From NCBI RefSeq assembly GCF_900113765.1, contig NZ_FOQO01000003.1, positions 186,001-250,000 of the forward strand: a DNA stretch of 64,000 nt, given 5' to 3'. Of the stretch, positions 42,767 through 58,630 are shown piece after piece. Position numbers and translations under genes: made by a program. Within the stretch, counting starts at the first letter, position 1. Each line of letters begins with the position of its first letter. The stretch is from Parapedobacter indicus (GTDB taxonomy: Bacteria > Bacteroidota > Bacteroidia > Sphingobacteriales > Sphingobacteriaceae). The notes below the pieces were generated by a model. The model was not told where the DNA came from. It searched no databases and saw nothing but the letters and a program-made list of their open reading frames with translations.

Positions 42767-43345
42767 ATGCCCGAATATGCTGCCCATACGGATGAAACGT
42801 TGCTACCTTTGCTGCAAAAGGGTGACCGGGAAGCGTATACCGAAATTTACAATCGTTATCACGGACTCCTGTACGTATTCGCGTACAACCGGCTTAAAAA
42901 TCGAGAGGAAGCAAAAGATATTATTCACGAATTATTCCTTAAGCTTTGGCGAGACCGTGCATTTCTGCAAATCACAGGCCGTCTTTCGGTCTACTTGTAC
43001 ACCGCCGTTCGCAACCGCATAATCAATTCCATTACCCATCAGCAGATCGCCAATCGCTACATCGATTCCTTCCTTTCCTACATCGAAGCGGTTGATTCTC
43101 AATCGGCAGATTACCTAGCTCGACACAATGACCTGCAAGCATTTATTGAAAAAGAAATCGCGAGCCTGCAACCACGCATGCGTGAGGTGTTCGAATTAAG
43201 TCGCCACACGAATCTTTCACGTAAGGAAATCGCTGAGAAACTGGGGGTTTCGGAAGAAACGGTCAAGAGCCATATGCACAACGCACTGAAGGTATTGAAA
43301 GCACGACTGGGGAACCTCTTTTTTCTCGCTTTTTTAACTTTCTGA
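42767..43345 (+). CDS. ECF-type RNA polymerase sigma factor, cassette 1
   Basis: A 192-residue sigma-70 family factor. Region 2 (about 20-90) has AYTEIYNRYHGLLYVFAYNRLKNREEAKDIIHELFLKLW; region 4 (about 130-185) has the helix-turn-helix SRKEIAEKLGVSEETVKSHMHNALKVL. It is of the RpoE-like type paired with FecR proteins in Bacteroidota and should activate the susC/susD genes downstream when released. A GGGAGGA sequence lies just before the ATG, unusual in this phylum. fecR follows 76 bases later. Confidence 0.93.
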   Translation: MPEYAAHTDETLLPLLQKGDREAYTEIYNRYHGLLYVFAYNRLKNREEAKDIIHELFLKLWRDRAFLQITGRLSVYLYTAVRNRIINSITHQQIANRYIDSFLSYIEAVDSQSADYLARHNDLQAFIEKEIASLQPRMREVFELSRHTNLSRKEIAEKLGVSEETVKSHMHNALKVLKARLGNLFFLAFLTF

Positions 43346-43421
43346 AAAATTTTCACTTTTTACTCACCCCTTCTCCTTCCTCAACTGTCTTTCTCATACA
43401 AACGGCAACAGCTAACCCACT

Positions 43422-44561
43422 ATGAACAGGGAAGATGTAAAAGATATATTGACACGCTATCGTACCGATACATGTACAGAAGCCGAACGGCAATTGGTGG
43501 AACGCTGGATAGTACACGGCAGTGCCGATCCATTGGATTTGAGCGACGACCAACTATTGGAAGATCTGTTGGCTATTCGGTTGCGTCTGGAACGCGATTT
43601 CCGGGCAGAAAAAGCCACAATGACATACCGCTTTCGCCGATGGTTACCTTATGTCGCCGCAATTGTATTTCTCTTATCGGCTGGACTTTGGCTATTCCGT
43701 GATCAGTGGACAGGTAGTAAACAGCCAAGCACAGAAAGCCAACTGGTGGATATCGCACCTGGCGGCAACCGAGCTACGCTCACGCTAGCAGATGGACGCA
43801 CAGTCAACTTAAGTGTAGCTCAGAAAGGGATTGTCGTAGGAGACGGTGTAACCTACCTGGATGGCAGCAAACTCGTTGAAAACGGAAATATGAAGACGGC
43901 ATCTACCTTTAATTCCATAACGACTCCGAAAGGTGGCACCTACCAAATTAAACTTGCCGATGGCACCACCGTGTGGCTCAACTCCGCTTCCACATTGAAA
44001 TATCCTTCTCATTTCGACAAGAAAGAACGTGTAGTTGAACTACAAGGGGAAGCCTATTTTGACGTCCGATCTATACACTCCACACCTACACCCTTCCGAG
44101 TGATTACTCCAGGACACGCCGTGGAGGTACTAGGCACCCAATTTAATATCTCTGCATATGCGGAGGACGTTGAAACTAAAACCACCTTGGTTGCGGGACG
44201 TGTCCGAGTGCAAACCGTCGGCCGCACAACAAATCACACCGCCGTTCTCCAACCGGGGCAGCAAAGCACGGTATCGGAAAGTGGGGTCGCTGTAAATGAC
44301 GTCGATGTATCTCCGTTCATCGGCTGGAAGGATGGATTCTTTATCTTTAAAGGAACGGAGTTGCGCGAAGCGATGAAACAGATCGGTCGCTGGTACAACG
44401 TGGAGGTGATTTACGAAGGATTCATCTCACCAACGCCATTTTACGGAAAAATCAGTCGGGAAGACACGCTTGCCGAGGTACTTGCTATTCTGAAAGAAGG
44501 CAATATAAATTTCCGGATCGAACAGCAGGCTACTTCCAACCGGTTAGTGGTCATGCCTTGA
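43422..44561 (+). CDS. FecR-family anti-sigma factor, cassette 1
   Basis: A 379-residue inner-membrane regulator. The N-terminal cytoplasmic part (about 1-70) should bind the sigma factor encoded upstream. A single membrane helix (WLPYVAAIVFLLSAGLWLF, about 74-92) is followed by the periplasmic FecR domain (about 110-290, PKGGTYQIKLADGTTVWLNSASTLKYP) and a C-terminal DUF4974 domain (about 300-375). It receives the signal from the STN domain of the SusC at 44774. Confidence 0.93.
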   Translation: MNREDVKDILTRYRTDTCTEAERQLVERWIVHGSADPLDLSDDQLLEDLLAIRLRLERDFRAEKATMTYRFRRWLPYVAAIVFLLSAGLWLFRDQWTGSKQPSTESQLVDIAPGGNRATLTLADGRTVNLSVAQKGIVVGDGVTYLDGSKLVENGNMKTASTFNSITTPKGGTYQIKLADGTTVWLNSASTLKYPSHFDKKERVVELQGEAYFDVRSIHSTPTPFRVITPGHAVEVLGTQFNISAYAEDVETKTTLVAGRVRVQTVGRTTNHTAVLQPGQQSTVSESGVAVNDVDVSPFIGWKDGFFIFKGTELREAMKQIGRWYNVEVIYEGFISPTPFYGKISREDTLAEVLAILKEGNINFRIEQQATSNRLVVMP

Positions 44562-44603
44562 AGAAAAACTACGAACCCATGTAATGTTTAACCAATAAAT
44601 CTT

Positions 44604-44636
44604 AAGGAGGAACAAATGAAAAAAATCAAGACTTGA
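44604..44636 (+). promoter_or_regulatory. Micro-ORF with a strong Shine-Dalgarno sequence, cassette 1 leader
   Basis: AAGGAGG at 44604-44610, five bases, then ATG at 44616 and five more codons (MKKIKT) to TGA at 44634-44636. Cassette 2 has a matching micro-ORF (M-M-M-IKT-P-P) at the same distance from the hairpin and from susC. A translated leader peptide is possible. Confidence 0.45.
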
Positions 44637-44666
44637 CCAAACGAGACATGCCACCGTCCATCAAAA

Positions 44667-44697
44667 GACCGGAAAGTGTTAGAGGCACCATCCGGTC
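44667..44697 (+). ncRNA. Conserved leader hairpin upstream of susC, cassette 1
   Basis: GACCGGA (44667-44673) pairs with TCCGGTC (44691-44697). Inside, GTG pairs with CAC around the loop TTAGAGG. Cassette 2 has the same layout with a different stem sequence that still pairs and loop TTGAAGC. The hairpin ends 76 bases before the susC start. Not a terminator: no T-run follows. Confidence 0.6.
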
Positions 44698-44773
44698 GTA
44701 TCTGGATGTCACTGAGGCATTGCCATAAGGCACGATGAAATAACCAATTAGTTTATCCAAACAATACAAACAT

Positions 44774-47700
44774 ATGATTTTTTGTTCATGTGTTAAAGGT
44801 CACTTTTGGCTTTTAACAAACCGATTATTACTGATTATGAAATTAGCCGTTTTTCTGACATTGATAACGGTGCTGAAGGTCGCGGCTGGAGGGTATGCGC
44901 AAACCATCACCTTAAAGGCCCAAAACATGACCCTTCCTACCGCCATGGAGCGTATACAGGCACAAAGTGGTTATTTATTTTTCCTGAAGGGTGAAAAGCT
45001 GGCTAAGATGAAAGTAACCGCCCATATCAAGGAAGCGGCGTTACCTGAAGCCTTAGACCTGTTGACCAAAGACATGGGGCTCGAATGGATAATTAAGGAC
45101 AGGACGATCATTATCCGTTCAGGGAGACAGCGAGCGATAGAAAAAAACACCGAAAATTTATCAGTACAGGAACGCGTTGTCGTCGGAAAGGTGGTGGATG
45201 AAACCGGGGGGCCGCTTGAAGGGGTTACCGTAACTGTGAAGGGATATGCAACAGCCACCACTACCGATGCAGAAGGGAATTATCGCATTACGTTGCCGAA
45301 TGATGGTAATATCCTGATATTTAGCATCGTCGGGTTTGAAGCCCATGAAGAGACTATCGGTAATCATGGCCGGATCAATGCCTCGTTAAAAGCGTCGGTT
45401 AGCGACCTTGATGAAGTGATAGTAGTAGGATACGGTACACAACGTAAAGGGGATCTCACTGGTGCCATTTCTTCGATGACAGCTGACGACATCAAACAAA
45501 CCCAAGTGCTCTCCCCTGATCAGGCATTGCAGGGAAAAGCAGCAGGTGTTGAAGTCACCCAAACATCAGGGCAACCGGGCGCCAGTAGCCGGATTAGAAT
45601 CCGTGGCGGCAATTCGATTTCTGCGGGCAACGAGCCTCTATATGTAATTGACGGCTTTCCGATTTACAATAACAATAGTGCCAGCAACACCGGCGCAGGC
45701 CGGGCACCAAGCCTCAATGCCTTGGCTGCCATAAATCCATCGGACATCGTTTCGATGGAAATACTGAAAGACGCATCAGCGACAGCAATTTATGGCTCAC
45801 GAGGTGCCAATGGGGTTGTCATGATTACCACAAAACGTGGAAAGGCAGGTGTCAATAACGTTGCATTCGAATCGAGTTTCGGTGTTCAGAAAGTCCGACA
45901 CACCATCCCCATGTTAAATGCCCGTGAATATGCTTCGTTTGAAAACGAAATATTTCTGTATCAACGGGATATACTGAAGCAAAGTAACCGGGTACCCGTC
46001 TACACAGATGAACAAATTGCATCGCTCGGAGAAGGGACAAATTGGCAAAACGAGCTCTTCCGTACAGCTCCGATCCAAAATTACCACATTGCATTTTCGG
46101 GAGGAGACGACAACATGCAGTATGCATTGACTGGAGGTTATACAGATCAACAAGGTATTATTCTCAATTCAGATTATAAGCGCTATTCGACACGGCTTAA
46201 TTTAGACAGGAAGGTCGGTAAACGCGTAAAAATAGGAAACAGTTCCACCTTAAGTTTAACCACATCCGATCTGGCATTTACCGGCGCAGCAGCAAGCGTA
46301 CAAGGGGGTAACACGGGTGTGGTCGGTGTCGCACTTCATTTTAATCCAATAAATCCTGTACGTGATCCTGCAACCCATGAATATACCTTCCAGGATTATA
46401 ACATTGGCGAAGTCCCCGGTGCACAGAACAGAAACGTTCCATTCTACAATCCGGTCGCAATGGCTATGGAGGCAACCAACCAAAGCAATACCTTTCGGGC
46501 ACTAAACAACCTGTATGCTGAGATTGATCTAATGAAAAATCTAACATTTCGGACCAGCCTAGGCGCAGATTACATGACCACCAAGCAAAAAAACTACATG
46601 CCGAGGTCTATCCGGTTTGCCGAACCGGTAGGTGGCCAGGCCCGGATGGGGCAGGCTCAGTCACTCTCTTGGTTAAATGAGAACACGTTGACTTACAAGA
46701 TCGCATTCGGAGATCATCAATTAGATCTGTTGGGCGGATATACGGCACAATCTTACAGACGCGAAAACTTTTGGGTTTACGATGAAGGATTCGTCAACGA
46801 TTTCCTGGAAGAGAATAATATCGGAACCGGTAGCCGTACGGTGCTGCTAAACCGGCCCTCTGTATCCGAATGGGGGCTGCTCTCTTACCTAATAAGAGCC
46901 AACTATAACCTTAAGGATCGATACCTTGTCACCGTCTCTGCACGATACGACGGATCGTCGAGATTCGGAAAAGACAATAAGTGGGGTTTTTTTCCCTCGG
47001 CTGCCTTTGCATGGAAGCTTTCCGAAGAGGCATTTATAAAATCGCTCAATTTGTTTTCTCAATTGAAACTACGCGCAAGCTACGGCATGACCGGCAATCA
47101 GGAAATCGGAGTTTATCAGTCGTTAGCTCAATTGACAAATGGTGTTTATACCCTGGATGAGACCAATGCAAACGGCTATTCCCCAGTACGCATTGCCAAC
47201 CCCGATCTACGGTGGGAGTCTACTTCTCAATTGGATATTGGTATAGACGCTGGTTTTTGGGATGGTCGGGTTTCGTTAACGGCCGACTACTACCTGAAAA
47301 ACACCAAAGATCTTCTGCTAAATGTACAGATACCCTCCTCCAGCGGATTCACTACCTCCCTGCAAAACGTCGGCAGCTTGCAAAACAAAGGATTTGAATT
47401 TTACGTCAACACGGTGATTCTCCAAGGAGATATAGCCTGGGATTTTTCAGTCAATTTTTCGACCAACCGGAACCGGATAATGAACTTAGGTAGGGAGGAA
47501 CAACGGCTGATTTATACTGACTGGAATGTGCTAAAGGGTCAACCTGCGTCCCTGCTTGAAGTCGGACAACCGATCGGACGGTTTATTGGCTGGAAAACAA
47601 ATGGCTGGTTCTTGACCGACGAGGAAGCCGCCCTGGCTCCAGACCAAACACCAGCAGACCAAAATCCGTTACAGCTGGGTGGGAACATCCGATATGTGGA

Positions 47701-48262
47701 TATCAACGGTGACAACGTCGTGAATGATGAAGACAGAACAGTGATCGGCCATGCATTGCCTGATTGGACCGGAGGCTTTTCTACTTCAATCGGTTACAAG
47801 GGTTTCCAACTGAATACTGCCTGGGCATTCTCCTATGGAAATGACGTCATGAATTTCAATAAATTGGAAAATCACTTCGGTATCGGACGGTACAATGCGA
47901 GTAAAAACTTCAACAAACGATGGTCGTACATGAACACACCGGAGGAAAACAGAAATGCAACCGCCCCGACGGTACTTGACAGCCGTAACTTATTTTCGGT
48001 AATCGATTATTGGGTAGAAGATGCGTCCTACCTGCGCATGCGCAGCGTCACCCTTTCTTATACCCTACCTCAGCTCAAACCCCCATTTATCAAGAGCGCA
48101 CAGGTCTATATCTCCGGGCAAAACCTCCTAACGTTTACGAATTATACGGGTTTCGATCCGGAGGTAAGTCTTGGCGAACAAGACAATTTGCTCCTTGGAT
48201 TCGATTATGGTTCATATCCTTCAGCAAAGACGTACATGGTAGGTTTACGATTTGATTTTTAA
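44774..48262 (+). CDS. SusC-like TonB-dependent receptor with STN signalling domain, cassette 1
   Basis: An outer-membrane receptor of 1,162 residues. An N-terminal extension and signal sequence end near GGYAQ (about residue 43). The STN domain (about 44-115, ITLKAQNMTLPTAMERIQAQSGYLFF) can contact FecR. A carboxypeptidase-regulatory-like domain (about 135-215), a plug with the SusC block VIVVGYGTQRKGDLTGAISS and LQGKAAGVEVTQTSG, and a beta barrel ending in LRFDF follow. An alternative ATG at 44837 would shorten the extension. It is 212 bases from fecR, with a structured leader between. Confidence 0.94.
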   Translation: MIFCSCVKGHFWLLTNRLLLIMKLAVFLTLITVLKVAAGGYAQTITLKAQNMTLPTAMERIQAQSGYLFFLKGEKLAKMKVTAHIKEAALPEALDLLTKDMGLEWIIKDRTIIIRSGRQRAIEKNTENLSVQERVVVGKVVDETGGPLEGVTVTVKGYATATTTDAEGNYRITLPNDGNILIFSIVGFEAHEETIGNHGRINASLKASVSDLDEVIVVGYGTQRKGDLTGAISSMTADDIKQTQVLSPDQALQGKAAGVEVTQTSGQPGASSRIRIRGGNSISAGNEPLYVIDGFPIYNNNSASNTGAGRAPSLNALAAINPSDIVSMEILKDASATAIYGSRGANGVVMITTKRGKAGVNNVAFESSFGVQKVRHTIPMLNAREYASFENEIFLYQRDILKQSNRVPVYTDEQIASLGEGTNWQNELFRTAPIQNYHIAFSGGDDNMQYALTGGYTDQQGIILNSDYKRYSTRLNLDRKVGKRVKIGNSSTLSLTTSDLAFTGAAASVQGGNTGVVGVALHFNPINPVRDPATHEYTFQDYNIGEVPGAQNRNVPFYNPVAMAMEATNQSNTFRALNNLYAEIDLMKNLTFRTSLGADYMTTKQKNYMPRSIRFAEPVGGQARMGQAQSLSWLNENTLTYKIAFGDHQLDLLGGYTAQSYRRENFWVYDEGFVNDFLEENNIGTGSRTVLLNRPSVSEWGLLSYLIRANYNLKDRYLVTVSARYDGSSRFGKDNKWGFFPSAAFAWKLSEEAFIKSLNLFSQLKLRASYGMTGNQEIGVYQSLAQLTNGVYTLDETNANGYSPVRIANPDLRWESTSQLDIGIDAGFWDGRVSLTADYYLKNTKDLLLNVQIPSSSGFTTSLQNVGSLQNKGFEFYVNTVILQGDIAWDFSVNFSTNRNRIMNLGREEQRLIYTDWNVLKGQPASLLEVGQPIGRFIGWKTNGWFLTDEEAALAPDQTPADQNPLQLGGNIRYVDINGDNVVNDEDRTVIGHALPDWTGGFSTSIGYKGFQLNTAWAFSYGNDVMNFNKLENHFGIGRYNASKNFNKRWSYMNTPEENRNATAPTVLDSRNLFSVIDYWVEDASYLRMRSVTLSYTLPQLKPPFIKSAQVYISGQNLLTFTNYTGFDPEVSLGEQDNLLLGFDYGSYPSAKTYMVGLRFDF

Positions 48263-48283
48263 CGATTTTCAAAAAAGCAGAAC

Positions 48284-49717
48284 ATGAAAAGAAAATATAT
48301 TTTAATTGCATTTTTCCCGATAATTTTATCCTGCACTGGTTTGCTGGATGAAAATCCGGAGACATTCATTGACCCGAATCGTTTTTACCGCAACATCGAC
48401 GAAGCAACAGCGGCCACGTATGGCATTTACGATATGTTACCATCTATGTACCGAAATCCATACATGACCGCTTTTGCGGATGTATCTTCCAACAGCTTCA
48501 AAGTCACTTCAGCCTCGGCTACTGACTTTCAGCCGTTTGATATCCATAGCATCAGCTCGTCCAACGATCTATTGACGAATTTTTGGGAAGCCTCCTATCG
48601 GGGAATTAATCGGGCAAATGCTGTACTTGATCGGATTTCGAACGTAGAAGGTGATCAAAACAGAAAGAACGAAATCGTCGGTGAAGCAAAATTCTTACGC
48701 GCGCTCTTCTATTTCAACCTAGTGAGACTATTCGGTGATGTTCCCCTGTCACTACACGAAACCGTTGCTCTTACTGACCTGAATTTGGCACGTACCCCTT
48801 TGACAGAGGTTTATCATCAAATCGTAGACGACCTGCTCGATGCAAAAAACCAACTACCTGCGTTTCCTCGGCAAGCAGGTCGCGCAGATTTGTATGCTGC
48901 CACCGCGCTGCTCAGTAAGGTCTACTTAACCATCATGGACTATCCCAATGCAGCTAAAATGGCCGAAGAAGTGATTCTATCCGGCAAGCATGACCTGTGG
49001 GGACACTATCGAGAAGCGTTTCTCGAGAAGAATGATAATGGCAAAGAATCGATTTTCGCTGTCCAGTTCAGAAAAGATGTCGATGGTCTGAATCTCAATC
49101 AATGGGCGCTTTCCCCTCTTTTGAACAGTTATGTGGCTGGAGGATCTCTATTGGATTTGATGGAAATTACCGATGAACTGCTGAATGGTTATGAAGAGGG
49201 AGATCAACGCAAGGATCTAAATGCGGTTTCGCAGTATATTACCGCAGATAACAAAGTCATCAACTTTCAGGCATTGTGTTTTAAATATACGGATGGCATC
49301 TTCACCGATAAGGCAGAGCCTGCCTTCAATAATGCCGGCAACTCCGGTGTCAATTATCAGATTCTGCGTTACGCAGACGTTCTGCTAATATTTGCGGAGG
49401 CACAAAATGAAATATCAGGACCAACCCCAGCTGCATATGATGCAATCAACCGTGTAAGACGCCGCGCTTTTGGACTTCCCTTGGATATACCTTCACGCCA
49501 TGATTTAATGGAACTTAGTAAAGAAACCTTTCGTGAAGCCATATGGCAGGAACGATTCCTTGAATTACCATTTGAAGGAAACCAGTGGTTTGACCTCATC
49601 AGAACAGGGCGTGCAGAAGCTACCCTGGATATTCCGACTGAAAAAACTCTTTATCCCATTCCACAACGGGAAATCGACGTGAACAACCAGTTAATACAAA
49701 ATCCCGGATATAATTAA
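48284..49717 (+). CDS. SusD/RagB-like outer-membrane lipoprotein, cassette 1
   Basis: A 477-residue lipoprotein with lipobox ILSC (C17). The N-terminal SusD-like part (DENPETFIDPNRFYRNIDEATAATYGIYDML) and the C-terminal RagB/SusD part (WQERFLELPFEGNQWFDLIRTGRA and the end NPGYN) are typical. It forms the surface lid of the adjacent SusC barrel. The following oxidoreductase gene starts five bases after its stop codon. Confidence 0.94.
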   Translation: MKRKYILIAFFPIILSCTGLLDENPETFIDPNRFYRNIDEATAATYGIYDMLPSMYRNPYMTAFADVSSNSFKVTSASATDFQPFDIHSISSSNDLLTNFWEASYRGINRANAVLDRISNVEGDQNRKNEIVGEAKFLRALFYFNLVRLFGDVPLSLHETVALTDLNLARTPLTEVYHQIVDDLLDAKNQLPAFPRQAGRADLYAATALLSKVYLTIMDYPNAAKMAEEVILSGKHDLWGHYREAFLEKNDNGKESIFAVQFRKDVDGLNLNQWALSPLLNSYVAGGSLLDLMEITDELLNGYEEGDQRKDLNAVSQYITADNKVINFQALCFKYTDGIFTDKAEPAFNNAGNSGVNYQILRYADVLLIFAEAQNEISGPTPAAYDAINRVRRRAFGLPLDIPSRHDLMELSKETFREAIWQERFLELPFEGNQWFDLIRTGRAEATLDIPTEKTLYPIPQREIDVNNQLIQNPGYN

Positions 49718-51408: not shown

Positions 51409-51428
51409 CGGGATGCAATTTAGGGGGT

Positions 51429-51453
51429 GCCGCGGGTGCGGCCTATTTTATTT
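51429..51453 (+). terminator. Possible terminator after cassette 1
   Basis: GCCGC (51429-51433) and GCGGC (51438-51442) form a short stem with a 4-base loop, followed by CTATTTTATTT. Confidence 0.5.
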
Positions 51454-51465
51454 CCAAAAAAAACG

Positions 51466-51473
51466 TAGCTTTG
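51466..51473 (+). promoter_or_regulatory. -7 element of the cassette 2 sigma gene
   Basis: TAGCTTTG fits TAnnTTTG, 14 bases before the start codon; the leader would be about 8 bases. No clear -33 element. Confidence 0.5.
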
Positions 51474-51487
51474 GTAAATTTCCAATT

Positions 51488-52093
51488 ATGCCGCACCCGT
51501 CGTCCCAAATAACTCCCGACTTGCTACGCATGTTGCGTGATGGAGATGCCACGGCCTTTGGAAGAATATACAACATTTTTGCGCCGGTACTTTACCAACG
51601 ATTGTTACGTCTGTTAAAGGATACCGACACCGTGGAAGAAATCCTGCAGGACACCTTTCTGAAGCTTTGGGAAAAACGCGCACAAATAGATCCCGAACAG
51701 GCATTCACAACATACCTTTACCGCATTGCAGACCATCTAGCCATTGATGTATTCCGCAGGATAAGCCGTGATAAAGTATTGCAACAGGAGTTATGGGCCA
51801 GCACCCTAAGCTTCTACCTCCATACCGAGGAAACGTTTCTGGCCAAGGAACAGCGGCAGCTGATTTCCATGGCCATCGAGCAATTGCCACCGAAACGGAA
51901 ACAAATTCTTATACTGTGTAAACTGGAAGATAAAAGTTATCAGGAAGTGGCCCAATTAATGGGGATTTCTGTCTCCACTGTCAGCAACCAATTAGTGAAG
52001 GCCATTAAGGAAATCAAAAATTATGTGCTCCTATCTACCGGTGGTGAGCAAGTGATTATCCTTTCTCTTCTATTTTCATCTTACATTTATTAA
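51488..52093 (+). CDS. ECF-type RNA polymerase sigma factor, cassette 2
   Basis: About 201 residues from the ATG at 51488; an earlier in-frame ATG would begin upstream of the -7 element at 51466 and is rejected. Region 2 shows FGRIYNIFAPVLYQRLLRLLKDTDTVEEILQDTFLKLWEKR; region 4 shows SYQEVAQLMGISVSTVSNQLVKAIKEI. A hydrophobic tail (VIILSLLFSSYIY) ends the protein, as in many Bacteroidota ECF factors. It starts the second cassette and should be held by the FecR encoded at 52192. Confidence 0.92.
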   Translation: MPHPSSQITPDLLRMLRDGDATAFGRIYNIFAPVLYQRLLRLLKDTDTVEEILQDTFLKLWEKRAQIDPEQAFTTYLYRIADHLAIDVFRRISRDKVLQQELWASTLSFYLHTEETFLAKEQRQLISMAIEQLPPKRKQILILCKLEDKSYQEVAQLMGISVSTVSNQLVKAIKEIKNYVLLSTGGEQVIILSLLFSSYIY

Positions 52094-52191
52094 TCTGTAC
52101 CACAACAGGTTTCATTTTTTTCTCATTTTCCGATAGTGTGTTTTTCCAGTTCGTACGTATAGAGCAATAAACAGATTATAAACTTATCATT

Positions 52192-53433
52192 TTGGAGAAT
52201 CGCACAGCAATACTTGATTTGTTGACTGCCTTTTTAAATAAACAGGTGAGTCGCGAAGAATTTGACCGGCTTTTCTCGGCCCTTGCTAGCCTGGAAGATG
52301 AGGACTTTAAAGAGATGATCCTTCGGGCGTTGGATAACGGGCGCGACATTACCGATGTCGACTTCATCCAAGAACGCGTTTCCCATCTTTATCCACAGCT
52401 TCAGACAAAAATAGGATTGGCGTCATCTCAGCGAGTAATCAAGCCGCCGGATGCGTCCAAAAGGAAACGACTTCAAATCTGGTGGAAGGTTAATTCTGCT
52501 GCCGCGGTCGTACTTGCCTTCCTGTTTGGAGGCTTATATCTTCTATCCGATCAGCCCGATCACGGAGAATCAACGGCTGTGCTCACACCTGAACATATTC
52601 TTCCCGGGGGAAATCGTGCCGTACTAACACTGGCCGATGGGCGAAGCGTTGATTTAAATTCGAGAAAAAGCGGTATCGTGGTTGGTAATGGCCTTACCTA
52701 CCTTGATGGCAGTTCGGTTCTGGACGACCCCGAAAACGAGGGAATGAGTGCACTCAAACTCACGACGCCGAATGGAGGTCAATATCAAATTACGTTGTCA
52801 GATGGCACCCACGTATTGCTCAATGCTGCCAGTACGCTGACCTACCCCGCTGAATTTGGCAGTGAGAACACGCGAGAAGTTACCCTCGACGGCGAGGCCT
52901 ATTTCGAAGTGACAAAAGATCCGGAAAAGCCGTTCATCGTTGCTACCACCAAACAGCGTATTGAAGTACTGGGCACTTCATTCAACATCAATGCCTACGA
53001 CAATGAAACAACCACCAAAACAACGCTATTGACTGGTTCCGTACGTGTAAATATACCGGCAGGCAAGTATACAAATCAAGAAAGCCGGATACTTACTCCA
53101 AACCAACAAAGCGTGGTGAGCGATAGCCAATCTGAAATTACCGTCAAGAACGTCAATCCCGAGTCAGCAATGGCCTGGAAAAATGGGCTATTTAATTTTC
53201 ACGGACTAAGCATCGACGAATCGTTGAAACAGGTCGAACGCTGGTATGATATCCGAATTGTCTATCAAGGTGAAAAACCCGAAGGTTATTTAGGCGGTAA
53301 AATGAGCCGCGGCGTGAAGCTAGCTACGTTCCTTAATTTCCTGGAAAAAGACTTTCATATCAAATCCGAGATGAAGGCAGATCGTACGTTAATCCTATAT
53401 TCCGCTTCAAAAAAGCCGCTAACAACTAATTAA
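52192..53433 (+). CDS. FecR-family anti-sigma factor, cassette 2, with TTG start
   Basis: A 413-residue FecR protein. The cytoplasmic N-terminal part (1-95) binds the sigma factor; one membrane helix (about 97-118) leads to the periplasmic FecR domain (about 140-320, TPNGGQYQITLSDGTHVLLNAASTLTYPAEF) and DUF4974 (about 325-405). No ATG precedes the conserved N-terminal helices: the frame is closed by TAA at 52168, so TTG at 52192 is the likely start, with MENRTAILDLLTAFLN looking like family sequence. Confidence 0.9.
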   Translation: MENRTAILDLLTAFLNKQVSREEFDRLFSALASLEDEDFKEMILRALDNGRDITDVDFIQERVSHLYPQLQTKIGLASSQRVIKPPDASKRKRLQIWWKVNSAAAVVLAFLFGGLYLLSDQPDHGESTAVLTPEHILPGGNRAVLTLADGRSVDLNSRKSGIVVGNGLTYLDGSSVLDDPENEGMSALKLTTPNGGQYQITLSDGTHVLLNAASTLTYPAEFGSENTREVTLDGEAYFEVTKDPEKPFIVATTKQRIEVLGTSFNINAYDNETTTKTTLLTGSVRVNIPAGKYTNQESRILTPNQQSVVSDSQSEITVKNVNPESAMAWKNGLFNFHGLSIDESLKQVERWYDIRIVYQGEKPEGYLGGKMSRGVKLATFLNFLEKDFHIKSEMKADRTLILYSASKKPLTTN

Positions 53434-53446
53434 TAAACTAAATTCA

Positions 53447-53473
53447 ATGATGATGATCAAAACACCACCCTAA
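53447..53473 (+). promoter_or_regulatory. Micro-ORF in the cassette 2 leader
   Basis: Three consecutive ATG codons, then ATC AAA ACA CCA CCC and TAA at 53471-53473. The first ATG is 52 bases before the hairpin, against 51 bases in cassette 1. There is no clear Shine-Dalgarno sequence here. Confidence 0.35.
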
Positions 53474-53498
53474 CCCCTTATGGTATTTCATAGAAAAA

Positions 53499-53528
53499 GC
53501 AGGGAAGTGTTGAAGCCACTTACCCTGC
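53499..53528 (+). ncRNA. Conserved leader hairpin upstream of susC, cassette 2
   Basis: GCAGGG (53499-53504) pairs with CCCTGC (53523-53528); AAGTG (53505-53509) pairs with CACTT (53517-53521) around loop TTGAAGC. The stem sequence differs from cassette 1 but pairing is kept. The hairpin ends 75 bases before the susC start. Confidence 0.6.
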
Positions 53529-53603
53529 GATGTGCTATGATTTACCTTTTTATGTAACAAATCGAATTAGTTCACCAAAGTACAACCCTAGCATAACAAA
53601 ATT

Positions 53604-56600
53604 ATGAATAAAAAGCGAGGCTTGGAAGGCTTTTGCCTACCTCCTGAGCTGTATACCCAAAAATCCATCTTACGGCAAATCTTTATGGTTATCAAAGTGA
53701 GTTATGTCTTATTGTTTATCACCTGCCTTCAATTACAGGCTCGTACCTATTCACAGACTATCACGATGAATACCAAACAAACATCGCTTGAACGGGTATT
53801 TCAGGCGGTTGAACAACAAACCGGTTACGTGATCCTGTATAATTACAAAGAGTTACAACGAGCCAAGCCTGTGACCATCTCCGCGAGCAACCAGGAAATA
53901 ACGAAATTCTTAGATAGACTGTTCGCCGACCAACCGTTTACATACAACATAGAGGATAAAACGATTCTCGTAAGTGGTGGAAAACGGGTAAAACCGAAGT
54001 GGGCGAAGCCAACCGTCCGGATCTTCCCGCCCGTAGAGGCAAAACAAGCGCCCCTGACCGGTTCGGTGAAAGATGCGAGCGGTGCTCCCATCGAGGGTGT
54101 AACCGTTACCGTCAATGGAACCACGACGGCCACAAAAACCGGTTCCGATGGACGCTACCACATCGATGCACCTCCCAGCGACGGCACATTGGTCTTTTCG
54201 ATGCTTGGCTACAACACCGTGGAACAAACGATCGGAAATCGGCAAACGATTGACATCGTCATGATTCCATCGGTTAGCGATCTGGAGGAGGTAATTGTGG
54301 TAGGCTACGGTACCGCGCAAAAAAGGGATTTAACAGGAGCTGTGGCACGTGTTAACCTCGATCAAAACCGGCAGCAACCCAACATCAACCCGGTACAGAA
54401 CCTGCGGGGCACCGTAGCGGGCGTGAACATTACGGACAATGGGCGACCGGGATCGGATGGGACGATTCGGATCCGCGGTGCCAATTCGATTTCTGCCAGC
54501 AACAACCCGCTGATTGTATTGGACGGGATTATCTATGCGGGCGGCAGTTTATCCGACATCAACTCCACCGACATCGAATCCATTGATATTTTGAAGGACG
54601 CCAGCTCGTCCGCCATCTATGGTTCATTGGCCGCAAACGGGGTAATTTTGATCACCACAAAAAAGGGTACGACCGATAAGCCTCGGATTTCACTGAATTC
54701 GTATGTTGGCTTTTCGGATTTTGCCCACATCCCGAAATACCTCGATGCAGAAAAGTACCTACAGGTACGGAAAGACGCGGAGATCGCCGATGGTGGTGCC
54801 ATTCCGTTCAACCCGCTGGAACAAGCTAATATAGACGCCGGACGGACGATCGATCCGTTCGAGGAAATCCGCCAAAATTCACCGATCCATAGCAACGAAT
54901 TGAGCGTATCGGGCAAAAGTAAAGCGTTTACGTATTACTTTTCGGGAGCCTACTCGGGCGTAAAATCACCCGTAATGGGCGATAATTTCAGTCGGTTGGG
55001 CGCGCGGGTCAATTTAAATGTGAAAGTCACCGATTGGCTGAGTATCGGAACCAATTCAGGCTATACGGCGAAAGACAACTCAGGCGTGAGAGCTGACTTG
55101 GCCATGACCACCTTTTTAAGCCCATATGCAGAACTCTATTACGAGGACGGCGTTCCTCGGCCACTGCCAATGAACGTCGGACAGGTCAGGAGCCCCATTT
55201 TAAACGCACTTTTAAGCGATAACCTGGACAAAACGAACACGTTGTTCTCTAACAATTACCTGGATGTAGAACTTCCACTTGAGGGACTTACCTTTCGACT
55301 GAATACGGGTTATACGCAACGGAATAAAAAGGTGTTCAACTATAAACCCACATTTAACCGCGGGGAATTTTTCAATTTAGGAAGCGGAAGCCAAGCCTAC
55401 ACTGAATCTCGGAACCTTACGGTGGAAAACATCCTGCGGTACGACCGGACGTTTGCGGAAGATCATGCCTTTAACCTGACGCTGATGTACGGCGCGTATA
55501 AATCAGCAGATAACAGTGCCTCGCTGGCCAGCGACAATATCTTCAACGATGCCCTGGGCTACAATGCATTGGAAATCGGCGAGAATTTCACCATCAACAC
55601 CGGCGCCGGCGAAGATCAACAGGTGTCGATGATGGGGCGGGCGGGCTACCGGTATAAAGGCAAATACATTGTTGACGCCACCATCCGGAGAGACGGTTTT
55701 TCAGCCTTCGGAAAAGGTCGGAAATACGGGGTATTCCCTTCCGCCGGGGTCAGTTGGGTCCTTTCTGAAGAAGAATTCTTAGCCGACAACTCCTACATCA
55801 ATAGCCTCAAGGTGCGGTTATCGTGGGGAAGGAATGGAAATCGAGGCGTAAGCCGGTATTCATCCCTCAGCTCCGTCGCACAAACCAATTACGTATTCGG
55901 GAACGGCGCGGCTCCGTCAGTTGGTCTTTATACCAATTCGATGGGTAACCCCAACTTGGGGTGGGAAACCACTACGAGTACGAACTTCGGGGTAGACTTT
56001 GAGTTGTTCTCAAACCGTGTAAACGGATCCGTTGAGTTGTACCACAGCAACACGTACAACCTGCTGCTGAGACAGCGTATTCCTAACATGTCCGGTTTCA
56101 CTACATTCCTACGTAACATCGGGGAGACTGAAAACAGAGGTTTTGAAGTAACCCTCAACACGGTCAACGTCCAGAAAGGAAGCTTCAGCTGGGATACCCG
56201 TGTTGCGTTTTCATTGAACAGAAACAAGATTCTCAAATTGACGGGGAACGATCTGGACGGTGACGGTGTGGAAGACGACGACATTGCCAGCGGCTGGTTC
56301 ATCGGCTATCCTCTTGCGTCGAACTTCGACTATGTTTTTGACGGGATTTATCAAGAGGGCGACGACGACTTTTCGCTGCTACCCGGCTCCAAGCCCGGCG
56401 ACGTGAAATTCCGGGATATGAATGACGATGGTAAAATCACGCCAGCCGACCGACGCGTATTAAGCAATTCGCAGCCGATTTTTTTAGCCGGCATCACCAA
56501 TACCTTCTCGTATAAACAGTTTTCGCTCATGGTAATGTTTAACATTCGCCAAGGCGGAGAAAGCGCAAATCAAGCGATTAATATCGGTCGGAACTTCTAT

Positions 56601-56936
56601 TACGAATCCAATACGCTCGATGTCCCATATTGGATGCCTGAAAACCCCATCAACGATTATCCCGCCATTAATTACGGAAATCCCTTGAACTATGGCTTTT
56701 ATCAATCCCGCAGTTTTGTCCGGTTACAGGATGTGTCGTTAAGCTATAATTTTTCGAGCGCACTGCTTGAAAAACTGCGGATTCAGAACCTTCGGTTATT
56801 TGTCAGTGGCAAAAACTTGGTTACATGGACCAAGTGGAACGGGTGGGATCCGGAATATGGCGGTGGCGGAAGAGGCCCCGGAGATAACGGTCCAATCTTG
56901 AAAACGTATACATTCGGTTTAAACTTCCAACTGTAA
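53604..56936 (+). CDS. SusC-like TonB-dependent receptor with STN signalling domain, cassette 2
   Basis: An outer-membrane receptor of 1,110 residues. A signal sequence with a long N-region ends near ARTYSQ (about residue 51). Then come the STN domain (about 52-120, MNTKQTSLERVFQAVEQQTGYVILYNY), a carboxypeptidase-regulatory-like domain (about 150-225), a plug with VIVVGYGTAQKRDLTGAVARV and LRGTVAGVNITDNG, and a barrel ending in FGLNFQL. It has the same order as the receptor at 44774. The STN domain implies ligand sensing through the FecR at 52192. Confidence 0.94.
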   Translation: MNKKRGLEGFCLPPELYTQKSILRQIFMVIKVSYVLLFITCLQLQARTYSQTITMNTKQTSLERVFQAVEQQTGYVILYNYKELQRAKPVTISASNQEITKFLDRLFADQPFTYNIEDKTILVSGGKRVKPKWAKPTVRIFPPVEAKQAPLTGSVKDASGAPIEGVTVTVNGTTTATKTGSDGRYHIDAPPSDGTLVFSMLGYNTVEQTIGNRQTIDIVMIPSVSDLEEVIVVGYGTAQKRDLTGAVARVNLDQNRQQPNINPVQNLRGTVAGVNITDNGRPGSDGTIRIRGANSISASNNPLIVLDGIIYAGGSLSDINSTDIESIDILKDASSSAIYGSLAANGVILITTKKGTTDKPRISLNSYVGFSDFAHIPKYLDAEKYLQVRKDAEIADGGAIPFNPLEQANIDAGRTIDPFEEIRQNSPIHSNELSVSGKSKAFTYYFSGAYSGVKSPVMGDNFSRLGARVNLNVKVTDWLSIGTNSGYTAKDNSGVRADLAMTTFLSPYAELYYEDGVPRPLPMNVGQVRSPILNALLSDNLDKTNTLFSNNYLDVELPLEGLTFRLNTGYTQRNKKVFNYKPTFNRGEFFNLGSGSQAYTESRNLTVENILRYDRTFAEDHAFNLTLMYGAYKSADNSASLASDNIFNDALGYNALEIGENFTINTGAGEDQQVSMMGRAGYRYKGKYIVDATIRRDGFSAFGKGRKYGVFPSAGVSWVLSEEEFLADNSYINSLKVRLSWGRNGNRGVSRYSSLSSVAQTNYVFGNGAAPSVGLYTNSMGNPNLGWETTTSTNFGVDFELFSNRVNGSVELYHSNTYNLLLRQRIPNMSGFTTFLRNIGETENRGFEVTLNTVNVQKGSFSWDTRVAFSLNRNKILKLTGNDLDGDGVEDDDIASGWFIGYPLASNFDYVFDGIYQEGDDDFSLLPGSKPGDVKFRDMNDDGKITPADRRVLSNSQPIFLAGITNTFSYKQFSLMVMFNIRQGGESANQAINIGRNFYYESNTLDVPYWMPENPINDYPAINYGNPLNYGFYQSRSFVRLQDVSLSYNFSSALLEKLRIQNLRLFVSGKNLVTWTKWNGWDPEYGGGGRGPGDNGPILKTYTFGLNFQL

Positions 56937-56947
56937 AAGAATTGAAA

Positions 56948-58630
56948 ATGAAAGCAAACATCACGATCATAATGAGTTTGGCTGCTGTTATACTGTTCAG
57001 TGGATGCAGCAGCAGTTTTTTGGATGAAGTCCCGCTCGATCGTTTCAGTCCGGAGAATTTTCTGGTAGACGAAGCGGGCTTCGAAGCAGCAACGGTGGCC
57101 CTTTACCAAGCCGCGCGTGATGAACACGCCATTGGAGGCGCTAATTTTGATTACATGAACCTCGGGACCGACCTCATTGAGTGGGGACGGTACGATTCCC
57201 GGGGTTTCAAAGATTACAATTTACTAACGTCCCAAGAGGCAGCCGTAGGCGGATATTGGACTTGGGCGTATCAGGACATGATTCGCCAGTGTAACCTGAT
57301 ATTGGATAAGCTGAACGATCCGGAAATTGAACTCAGCGAAGATGCACGAAACCGGTTTGAAGCGCAAGCCAAGTTTTTCAGGGGATATACGTACAACATT
57401 CTCGCCACGTTATACGGCGGCGTTCCGATTGTCACCGACGTTATATCCGAACCCAAATTTGATTTTCAGCGGGCGTCAAAGGAAGAGGTACTCCAACTTG
57501 TCCGGCAGGACCTAGAAGAGGCGGGGGCATTGCTTCCTATTACCGGGAATGTATCCGACGGACGAATTCACAAGGCTGCAGCCTATCATACCCTCTCCGA
57601 AGTGTATCTGTCGTTAGCTCTGGAAACCAATGACGCCTCTTATTACGATCTGTCTATCGACGCTGCCAGTAAGGTAATCAATAAAGAAGTGGGCGACTAC
57701 CGCATTATGACGGAGCGATTCGGCGATCTATCCCGCCCCGGCGACGTCTTTTCCGACCTGTTCCAAACCGATCAACGTAGCCGCGAATCGGGCAACATGG
57801 AAGTCATTTGGAGCTGGCAATTTGAGAGCTTTACCCTTGGCGGCCATACCAGTGCTGGCAACGGTGGTAACAACTCGCCCCGGTTGTGGTTTCCCCAATG
57901 GGAGAAGATCGCAAGCCCCAACGGTGCTTTCAACCTTTCTACCGATAGCATGCTGCGTGGAATCGGCGTCAATTCGCCGTTGAATTATGTCAAGTATGAC
58001 ATCTGGCGCCTTGATCCGAACGACATGCGTAATTCGTCGTACAACATTCGACGGGTGTATTACTACAACAATCCCGATGATCCGGAATATTTCGGTAAAC
58101 CGATGAAGACGGGATACAATAGCAAAGGCGAAAAAGTCCTCCTCAAGAACGATGGAACACTTTCAAATGTCGTACTGGATACCCTCATGCAATATTACCC
58201 CTGGATCCGCAAGGTCGACGGAAAACCCTTTGAAGATAACGTGGTTGGAGGCCAGTCCGAAAACGACATCATCAAAATGAGGTTGGCGGAAACGTATCTG
58301 TTCAGGGCGGAAGCCTATTTCAGGAAAGGGAATTTAGGAGAGGCAGCGGCGGACATTAACGTACTGAGAAATCGGGCACACGCCACTCCCATCGCCCCAC
58401 AAGACGTCACCGTGGATTTCATTCTGGATGAACGGGCGCGCGAACTGATTGCCGAAGAACCCCGTAGGCGCACGCTAAGCCGGATGGGCATGTTTTACGA
58501 ACGGGTAAAAAAATACAACCCATCTTCTGGTCCTACGGTGCAGCCACATAACGAACTGTGGCCCATTCCACAAAGCGTGATCGACGCCAATACGGGAGCC
58601 GAGATGATACAAAATCCCGGATATAATTAA
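56948..58630 (+). CDS. SusD/RagB-like outer-membrane lipoprotein, cassette 2
   Basis: A 560-residue lipoprotein with lipobox LFSGC (about residue 20). The ATG at 56948 is preferred over an in-frame TTG two codons earlier. N-terminal FLDEVPLDRFSPENFLVDEAGFEAATVALYQAAR and C-terminal DERARELIAEEPRRRTLSRMG with the ending NPGYN are typical of the RagB branch. It lies 11 bases after its susC. Confidence 0.94.
   Translation: MKANITIIMSLAAVILFSGCSSSFLDEVPLDRFSPENFLVDEAGFEAATVALYQAARDEHAIGGANFDYMNLGTDLIEWGRYDSRGFKDYNLLTSQEAAVGGYWTWAYQDMIRQCNLILDKLNDPEIELSEDARNRFEAQAKFFRGYTYNILATLYGGVPIVTDVISEPKFDFQRASKEEVLQLVRQDLEEAGALLPITGNVSDGRIHKAAAYHTLSEVYLSLALETNDASYYDLSIDAASKVINKEVGDYRIMTERFGDLSRPGDVFSDLFQTDQRSRESGNMEVIWSWQFESFTLGGHTSAGNGGNNSPRLWFPQWEKIASPNGAFNLSTDSMLRGIGVNSPLNYVKYDIWRLDPNDMRNSSYNIRRVYYYNNPDDPEYFGKPMKTGYNSKGEKVLLKNDGTLSNVVLDTLMQYYPWIRKVDGKPFEDNVVGGQSENDIIKMRLAETYLFRAEAYFRKGNLGEAAADINVLRNRAHATPIAPQDVTVDFILDERARELIAEEPRRRTLSRMGMFYERVKKYNPSSGPTVQPHNELWPIPQSVIDANTGAEMIQNPGYN

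Follow-up and report, generated by a model that had tools for sequence, protein, structure and literature searches.

Predicted minus-strand cis-antisense RNA genes in many fecR-susC spacers of Parapedobacter indicus, with relatives in other Bacteroidota

The closest described counterparts of the RNAs considered here come from Bacteroides. In the passages of a citing paper that deal with it, DonS of Bacteroides fragilis is presented as one of a set of cis-antisense RNAs of 78-128 nt that are divergent to susC homologs and lower their expression (PMC7366714), and 32 PUL-associated antisense RNAs are mentioned as annotated in B. thetaiotaomicron (PMC10994844). As late as 2025, the mechanism of the DonS-type RNAs was called unknown in an article whose relevant passages also indicate that ECF sigma/anti-sigma pairs typically control the Bacteroides PULs for host glycans (PMC11697453). 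The same article, devoted to polysaccharide utilization, refers to FopS, a group of paralogous sRNAs of B. thetaiotaomicron of which nine out of 14 members are intergenic (PMC11697453). Besides, a cis-acting intergenic region of the PUL transcript is described as repressing mucin O-glycan PULs, in work cited in PMC5635687. Outside Bacteroides, the literature searches yielded no paper on such RNAs, save a remark in a study of Flavobacterium psychrophilum that cites Cao et al.

The window analysed here, a stretch of 64,000 nucleotides from Parapedobacter indicus (contig NZ_FOQO01000003.1, positions 186,001 to 250,000), holds two full ECF sigma factor/FecR/STN-type SusC/SusD loci, at 42767-49717 and 51413-58630. 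In the first one, the gene of a FecI-like ECF sigma factor (42767-43345, plus strand, Pfam Sigma70_r2 and Sigma70_r4) is followed by the anti-sigma gene fecR (43422-44561, plus strand, Pfam FecR and FecR_C) and by an STN-type susC whose longest open reading frame covers 44774-48262 on the same strand (translation with Pfam STN and Plug), the real start being perhaps the ATG at 44837. The second one comprises, likewise on the plus strand, an ECF sigma factor gene (51413-52093) and fecR (52192-53433), both recognized by their Pfam domains, and an STN-type susC (53604-56936) whose STN match, with 28.0 bits, is slightly below the Pfam cut-off of 28.4. A FAD-dependent oxidoreductase gene (PF12831, 49723-51408) lies between the SusD gene of the first locus and the sigma factor gene of the second. 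At the scale of the 6.16 Mb genome, at least 62 distinct STN-susC genes were counted from 65 domain matches at E <= 0.001, doubles being merged by hand and 150 of the 179 first-look candidates being scored, and 61 of these genes stand directly behind a FecR-like frame. Because both the protein families and the covariance model R1 discussed below were scored on part of the first-look candidates, their copy counts are lower bounds throughout. A hairpin like the two described below recurs in most of the 61 fecR-susC spacers of this genome, and the best overall explanation, to which a probability of about 0.82 is given, is that many of these spacers carry minus-strand cis-antisense RNA genes whose products would repress the cognate locus.

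A first-pass annotation of the window had described hairpins at 44667-44697 and 53499-53528, with different but complementary stems (GACCGGA/TCCGGTC around GTG-TTAGAGG-CAC, and GCAGGG/CCCTGC around GTG-TTGAAGC-CAC), at nearly constant distances from the ATG of a micro-ORF (51 and 52 bases) and, past the hairpin end, from the first susC ATG (76 and 75 bases), together with a block AATTAGTT...CCAAA...ACAA common to both spacers. All these features are present in the sequence, and the structured RNA element that had been deduced from them between fecR and susC is supported: the compensatory stem changes are real, the stems covary across the paralogous spacers of the genome in MAFFT alignments, and a covariance model, once built and searched against genomes of Bacteroidota, finds further copies in other fecR-susC gaps. 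The annotation nevertheless mistook the strand when it suggested a sense-strand attenuator or processing site. This is indicated by a strand-neutral test in which the best stem of each spacer was chosen by rewarding only Watson-Crick pairs and penalising every other cell equally: 57 of the 61 spacers yielded a stem; of the cells that do not form Watson-Crick pairs in these stems, 50 read as G.U when the minus strand is taken and as A.C when the plus strand is, nine show the reverse, and 25 are of other kinds. The flanking tracts agree: on the plus strand, an A-tract (five or more A's within the eight bases that precede the hairpin) is seen in 38 spacers and a T-tract (five or more T's within the eight that follow it) in one, and such an A-tract corresponds to the U-tract of a terminator on the minus strand. 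The same asymmetry is seen in ten named genomes (58 versus 6 cells, stem in 69 of 86 spacers; tracts 46 versus 1) and at R1-selected loci (43 versus 6 cells, stem in 39 of 41; tracts 32 versus 1), while it is weak for the cells of a small phylum sample (9 versus 5, stem in 21 of 29; tracts 14 versus 0). The plus-strand fold is also less stable, with a mean of -13.2 versus -17.5 kcal/mol on the minus strand, in a comparison that is biased because the hairpins were chosen on the minus strand. The unit is most likely read from the minus strand, and the helix P1 and the promoter described below are parts of this same minus-strand unit.

A sense-strand leader element of the fecR-susC mRNA, acting as an attenuator, a processing site or a stabiliser, would agree with the ability of the hairpin to fold, less stably, on the plus strand too. 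Also in its favour is the micro-ORF, a short ATG...stop frame between fecR and the hairpin (44616-44636 and 53447-53473 in the window), which is found in 37 of the 41 own spacers having 40-140 nt before the hairpin, about twice the 17.8 +- 3.2 of the shuffled spacers. Yet this reading is rejected by the strand-neutral stem test and contradicted by the tracts; in addition, P1 begins 3-4 nt past a minus-strand -7 box in many copies, and no promoter-terminator pair was detected on the sense strand in any set (own genome, phylum sample, R1-selected loci, named genomes, sample from the order of Barnesiella). It is regarded as very unlikely. The micro-ORF itself lies outside the predicted antisense RNA and often ends with T-stop, as in MKKIKT, MKT and MET. 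An AGGAG-like stretch is present between fecR and the hairpin in 14 of the 41 spacers, sometimes ahead of the micro-ORF. Besides, a repeated motif AACCAATT occurs after fecR and before susC, for instance at 44742-44749, and is enriched both in the window, with 11 occurrences versus 4.4 expected, and past the fecR stops, where 12 of the 41 spacers have CCAATT (0.6 expected); it was considered as a promoter element and discarded, its distance to the next ATG being variable.

The sigma-ABfr-type promoters of Bacteroidota carry TAnnTTTG at -7 and TTTG at about -33, and transcription starts a few nucleotides downstream of the -7 box. On the antisense strand, 48 of the 61 own spacers have TANNTTTG at 45-100 nt from the hairpin, compared to two on the sense strand and 3.1 in shuffled spacers; in the 13 others, an exact -7 box is missing from this distance range. 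These exact boxes liken the sites to sigma-ABfr promoters, while the -33 element differs in being weakly visible, as a T-rich signal of 0.15-0.27 bits per position at -24 to -21, i.e. 21-24 nt upstream of the box. The distance from box to hairpin is kept even where the first susC ATG shifts (loci L004, L010, L019, L040 and L045); in L004, for example, the ATG is 143 nt and the box 64 nt from the hairpin, and in L045 these distances are 126 and 53 nt. A sequence CAAANNTA before susC had been envisaged as the -10 element of an ECF promoter on the sense strand, but the exact TAnnTTTG and the terminator on the same strand fit an antisense promoter better.

Terminators, taken as a stable hairpin followed by a U-tract on the same strand, are found on the antisense strand of 49 of the 61 own spacers versus eight on the sense strand. 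When terminators alone are counted elsewhere, the antisense and sense figures are 18 versus 6 of 29 in the phylum sample, 57 versus 17 of 86 in the named genomes and 13 versus 5 of 25 in the sample from the order of Barnesiella. A stable hairpin between two genes might simply be a bidirectional terminator, ending fecR transcription as well as minus-strand read-through without any regulatory RNA, and the sense-strand terminator-like sites of the eight spacers would be in keeping with it. This explanation is however at odds with the large majority of antisense terminators and accounts for neither the kept distance of the -7 box nor the covariation of P1, and it is judged extremely improbable. 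The association of the two signals was further evaluated by a strict pair test, independent of R1, which looks for TANNTTTG and then an intrinsic terminator 35-120 nt on: in the own genome, the pair is present on the antisense strand of 42 of the 61 spacers versus none on the sense strand, while 19 fail the test.

In the first spacer of the window, these signals delimit a predicted cis-antisense RNA of about 105 nt on the minus strand (44658-44762), with its 5' end near 44762 and its 3' U-tract near 44658. Its -7 box TATGTTTG, which fits TANNTTTG, lies at 44767-44774, read on the minus strand, and includes the A that opens the first in-frame susC ATG. According to the alignment and its covariation, the opening bases GUUUGGAU (44755-44762) form the 5' strand of P1 and pair with AUCCAGAU (44700-44707), both on the minus strand. 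They are followed by the terminator hairpin P2, which is the plus-strand hairpin of the first-pass annotation read on the minus strand (44667-44697), and by the U-tract (44658-44666, minus strand), which appears as A-rich on the plus strand and is recognized from the sequence and from the strand test on paralogs. This RNA aligns with R1 over the full model length with 62.4 bits, a score to be read with the fact that its row was in the training set. In the second spacer, the coordinates of the R1 match delimit a divergent RNA with a weak P1 (53489-53597, minus strand), the match extending one base into the -7 box TAATTTTG (53597-53604, minus strand), which here too includes the first base of the first in-frame susC ATG; the predicted start of the RNA is near 53592, and the terminator hairpin, again visible in the sequence, is at 53499-53528 on the minus strand. 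This copy was not among the rows used to build R1 and reaches 32.9 bits (E 2e-4) in a local search, while being absent from the matches listed in the genome-wide search; it is a weak member of the family with a poor P1. Judging from the arrangement of promoter, helices and terminator, the element is very probably an antisense-RNA gene that would be transcribed from the minus strand.

Among the FecR-linked own spacers, the 48 out of 61 with an in-range -7 box gave a predicted RNA; one of them (L008), whose automatic hairpin was wrong, was left out of the alignments, although its box stays among the 48. Counted from the first positions past the box to the U-tract, the RNAs of 47 own copies have a predicted length of 88-124 nt (median 103), their ends being predicted as well. 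Two helices are shared. P1 joins the first nine or so nucleotides (often GUUUGGAU) to a RUCCRAAC stretch immediately ahead of the terminator, and the terminator itself makes up P2. The start of P1, in many copies 3-4 nt past the box, coincides with the place where the antisense RNA is expected to begin. In the MAFFT alignment of 44 rows, which leaves out L046, L059 and L061, 81.3% of the cells pair, versus 68.8% in shuffled alignments and 40-50% in slid registers, and the covariation score is 0.43, versus 0.23 when shuffled and at most 0.18 when slid. Double changes occur there in 17 of the 19 pairs, a figure that is undistinctive since it is equalled by 14 of 500 shuffles and by the registers slid by -1 and +1, and G.U cells outnumber A.C cells by 116 to 23. 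A second MAFFT alignment of 27 rows was obtained by removing 17 more rows that looked divergent by eye, and this choice by eye means that R1 models the clearer members. In this alignment, 90.7% of the cells pair (40-48% in slid registers), 15 of the 19 pairs show changes on both sides, G.U cells number 73 versus 13 A.C, and none of 500 shuffles reaches any of the measures. Finally, a MAFFT alignment of other genomes, with 38 rows (37 distinct, L100 and L183 being the same place) retained from 60 fetched match loci (43 + 17), most omitted rows having scored lower, folds unaided into the same two helices, with double changes in 12 of 17 pairs. By our own tally it contains 101 G.U versus 8 A.C cells, a ratio that is not strand-independent, since a model of this same strand served to find the rows.

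The apex of the terminator is shared as well. An RYG-loop-CRY arrangement is present in 30 of 45 own terminators, 34 of 51 from the named genomes and six of 13 from the phylum sample, versus 11 of 66 other terminators taken as control, seven of these 11 being themselves antisense terminators at R1 matches. Among the R1 matches in this control, L197 and L219 are weak (E 0.07 and 0.015). The stricter GTG-N5-8-CAC is found in 22 of 46 own-spacer terminators versus 4 of the 65 window hairpins called terminators outside the two spacers, most of which look like false calls inside genes. A YUNR loop motif was also considered; it fits both window hairpins and fails, by eye, in the paralogs.

The specificity of the element was assessed with R1. 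In the own genome, at least 33 matches were obtained at E <= 0.001 with 150 of 1629 first-look candidates scored, and 33 out of 33 fall in fecR-susC spacers, 30 of them coinciding by coordinates with the listed STN loci and three (L175-L177) being verified separately; the match of L176 overlaps the upstream part of the susC frame. Matches were recorded in at least 23 of 60 genomes (own included, 66 candidates scored per genome), among which all nine searched genomes of the genus are positive, and, across the phylum, in at least 15 of 395 genomes (again counting the own one, with stricter filters and 10 candidates scored per genome). FecR and SusC stand side by side on the opposite strand at 51 of 53 R1 loci, and at 41 of 43 when the 10 own loci are excluded. 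Two matches in other phylum genomes (L128 and L130) have neither FecR nor SusC nearby, and may be false matches or antisense RNAs at other genes. A genome of the same family and another genus (G038, 5.1 Mb) holds at least 30 matches at E <= 0.001, nearly as many as the own genome.

The strict pair test gives a similar orientation in every set, the antisense and sense counts being 31 versus 0 of 41 at the R1-selected loci of other genomes, 9 versus 0 of 29 in the phylum sample selected by FecR (20 of the 29 lack the unit), 30 versus 0 of 86 in the ten named genomes (90 loci fetched; 56 of the 86 lack the unit), and 7 versus 0 of 25 in a sample from the order of Barnesiella, presumably Bacteroidales (30 loci; 18 of the 25 lack it). 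By genome, antisense pairs were detected at 13 of 27 loci in Sphingobacterium olei, four of eight in Pedobacter glucosidilyticus, four of six in Mucilaginibacter rigui, four of 17 in Dyadobacter sp. Leaf189, two of eight in Flavobacterium hibernum, two of six in F. hibisci and one of 10 in Spirosoma lacussanchae, and at none of the one, two and one loci of Algoriphagus faecimaris, Barnesiella sp. and a Muribaculaceae MAG, respectively. Since 34 of the 86 named fecR-susC gaps are shorter than 60 nt, some fecR-susC pairs have no room for the unit.

As for the role of this unit, the housekeeping sigma factor would read the TANNTTTG box, which overlaps the first susC ATG in the window copies, and antisense transcription would start a few nucleotides past it, proceed in the direction of fecR for about 90-120 nt and end at the intrinsic terminator. 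The resulting RNA is probably a repressor of susC, which would hold down its cognate SusC/SusD locus as long as the ECF sigma/FecR pair has not been triggered. Pairing with the susC leader RNA might be the means, promoter collision being a possible addition. Repression through base pairing is given even odds, and pairing with the leader appears as the likelier route compared to collision. The first-pass annotation had also mentioned a small-RNA target, and this comes closest among its options, with the susC leader as the presumed target of its own cis-antisense RNA, although the placing of the element on the sense leader strand does not hold.

A real antisense unit could also act by promoter occlusion or polymerase collision, its RNA product being inert. 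In both window copies, the overlap of the -7 box with the first susC ATG suggests that polymerases might compete for the same DNA. Moreover, a separate hairpin TGTTAAAGG...TTTTAACA is found on the plus strand at 44791-44818, downstream of the antisense promoter and inside an apparent N-terminal extension of SusC, with a stability of -11.2 kcal/mol on the plus strand versus -3.1 on the minus strand (shuffled mean -3.4). Many paralogs show a hairpin of varying sequence at the same promoter-downstream place, where 43 of 48 own copies beat the shuffled mean and the mean stability is -9.1 kcal/mol for the sense strand, -7.8 for the antisense strand and -5.4 after shuffling. Such a hairpin suggests that the susC mRNA may begin nearby, which would favour collision or occlusion; should this mRNA start beyond 44774, there would be hardly any overlap between the two RNAs, and the expected mechanism would be interference instead of pairing. 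On the other hand, collision alone would require neither the two covarying helices nor the terminator apex common to the copies, and an inert product is considered unlikely, although to be taken seriously.

A broader proposal extends the cognate repressor to one ancient, phylum-wide RNA family with cross-talk between paralogs, in which each RNA would bind many susC leaders and the network would rank dozens of uptake systems. The shared 5' start and the shared terminator apex might let the antisense RNAs bind non-cognate leaders. TTTGG occurs within the first 12 nt of 24 of the 47 own copies, and the predicted non-cognate pairing of these 24 copies has a mean of -52 kcal/mol, versus -34 with shuffled leaders (187 pairs), the cognate value being -197. 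Shared structure alone could be the cause of the stronger non-cognate pairing, and the cross-talk proposal is held as doubtful and quite improbable. A truly ancient origin of the family would make the control of SusC/SusD uptake by RNA a trait of the phylum at large, beyond the gut.

The element has no credible counterpart in Rfam 15, as the first-pass annotation had supposed. The whole window gives no match at the gathering score, in the only Rfam search that covers the second copy; the region 44540-44900 gives, at E <= 5, just one snoRNA and one miRNA family, far under their thresholds; and eight other loci give no match at E <= 1. Among the described systems, the region acting on mucin O-glycan PULs resembles the present spacers in being cis-acting, intergenic and lowering PUL expression, and could be the same sort of spacer, while it differs in being described, in the citing passage, as part of the PUL transcript (PMC5635687). 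The FopS RNAs are likewise small, paralogous and numerous within a single genome, and antisense members occur among them, but nine out of their 14 members are intergenic, this parallel being drawn from their description in passages of the article (PMC11697453).

The best parallel is DonS (Cao et al. 2016), as described in passages of the citing papers (PMC7366714, PMC10994844, PMC11697453), to which the RNAs predicted here are likened by place, direction, length and locus type, with expression and repression inferred in the present case. Both are antisense or divergent to a susC homolog, the predicted 88-124 nt fall within the printed range of 78-128 nt, and an ECF sigma/anti-sigma pair is present at both window loci, the other copies having been checked for FecR and SusC. 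They differ in the bacteria concerned and in the two-helix structure and apex shared between copies, demonstrated here by covariation. Because of the Bacteroides precedent, the novelty is limited: this is a known kind of RNA, of which the shared structure and the reach across the phylum are the new part. A puzzling leader motif becomes a predicted and testable repressor RNA, such RNAs can be found in DNA sequence alone with the help of the covariance model, and the DonS-type control documented in gut Bacteroides is suggested for other Bacteroidota too, one genome holding dozens of predicted copies.
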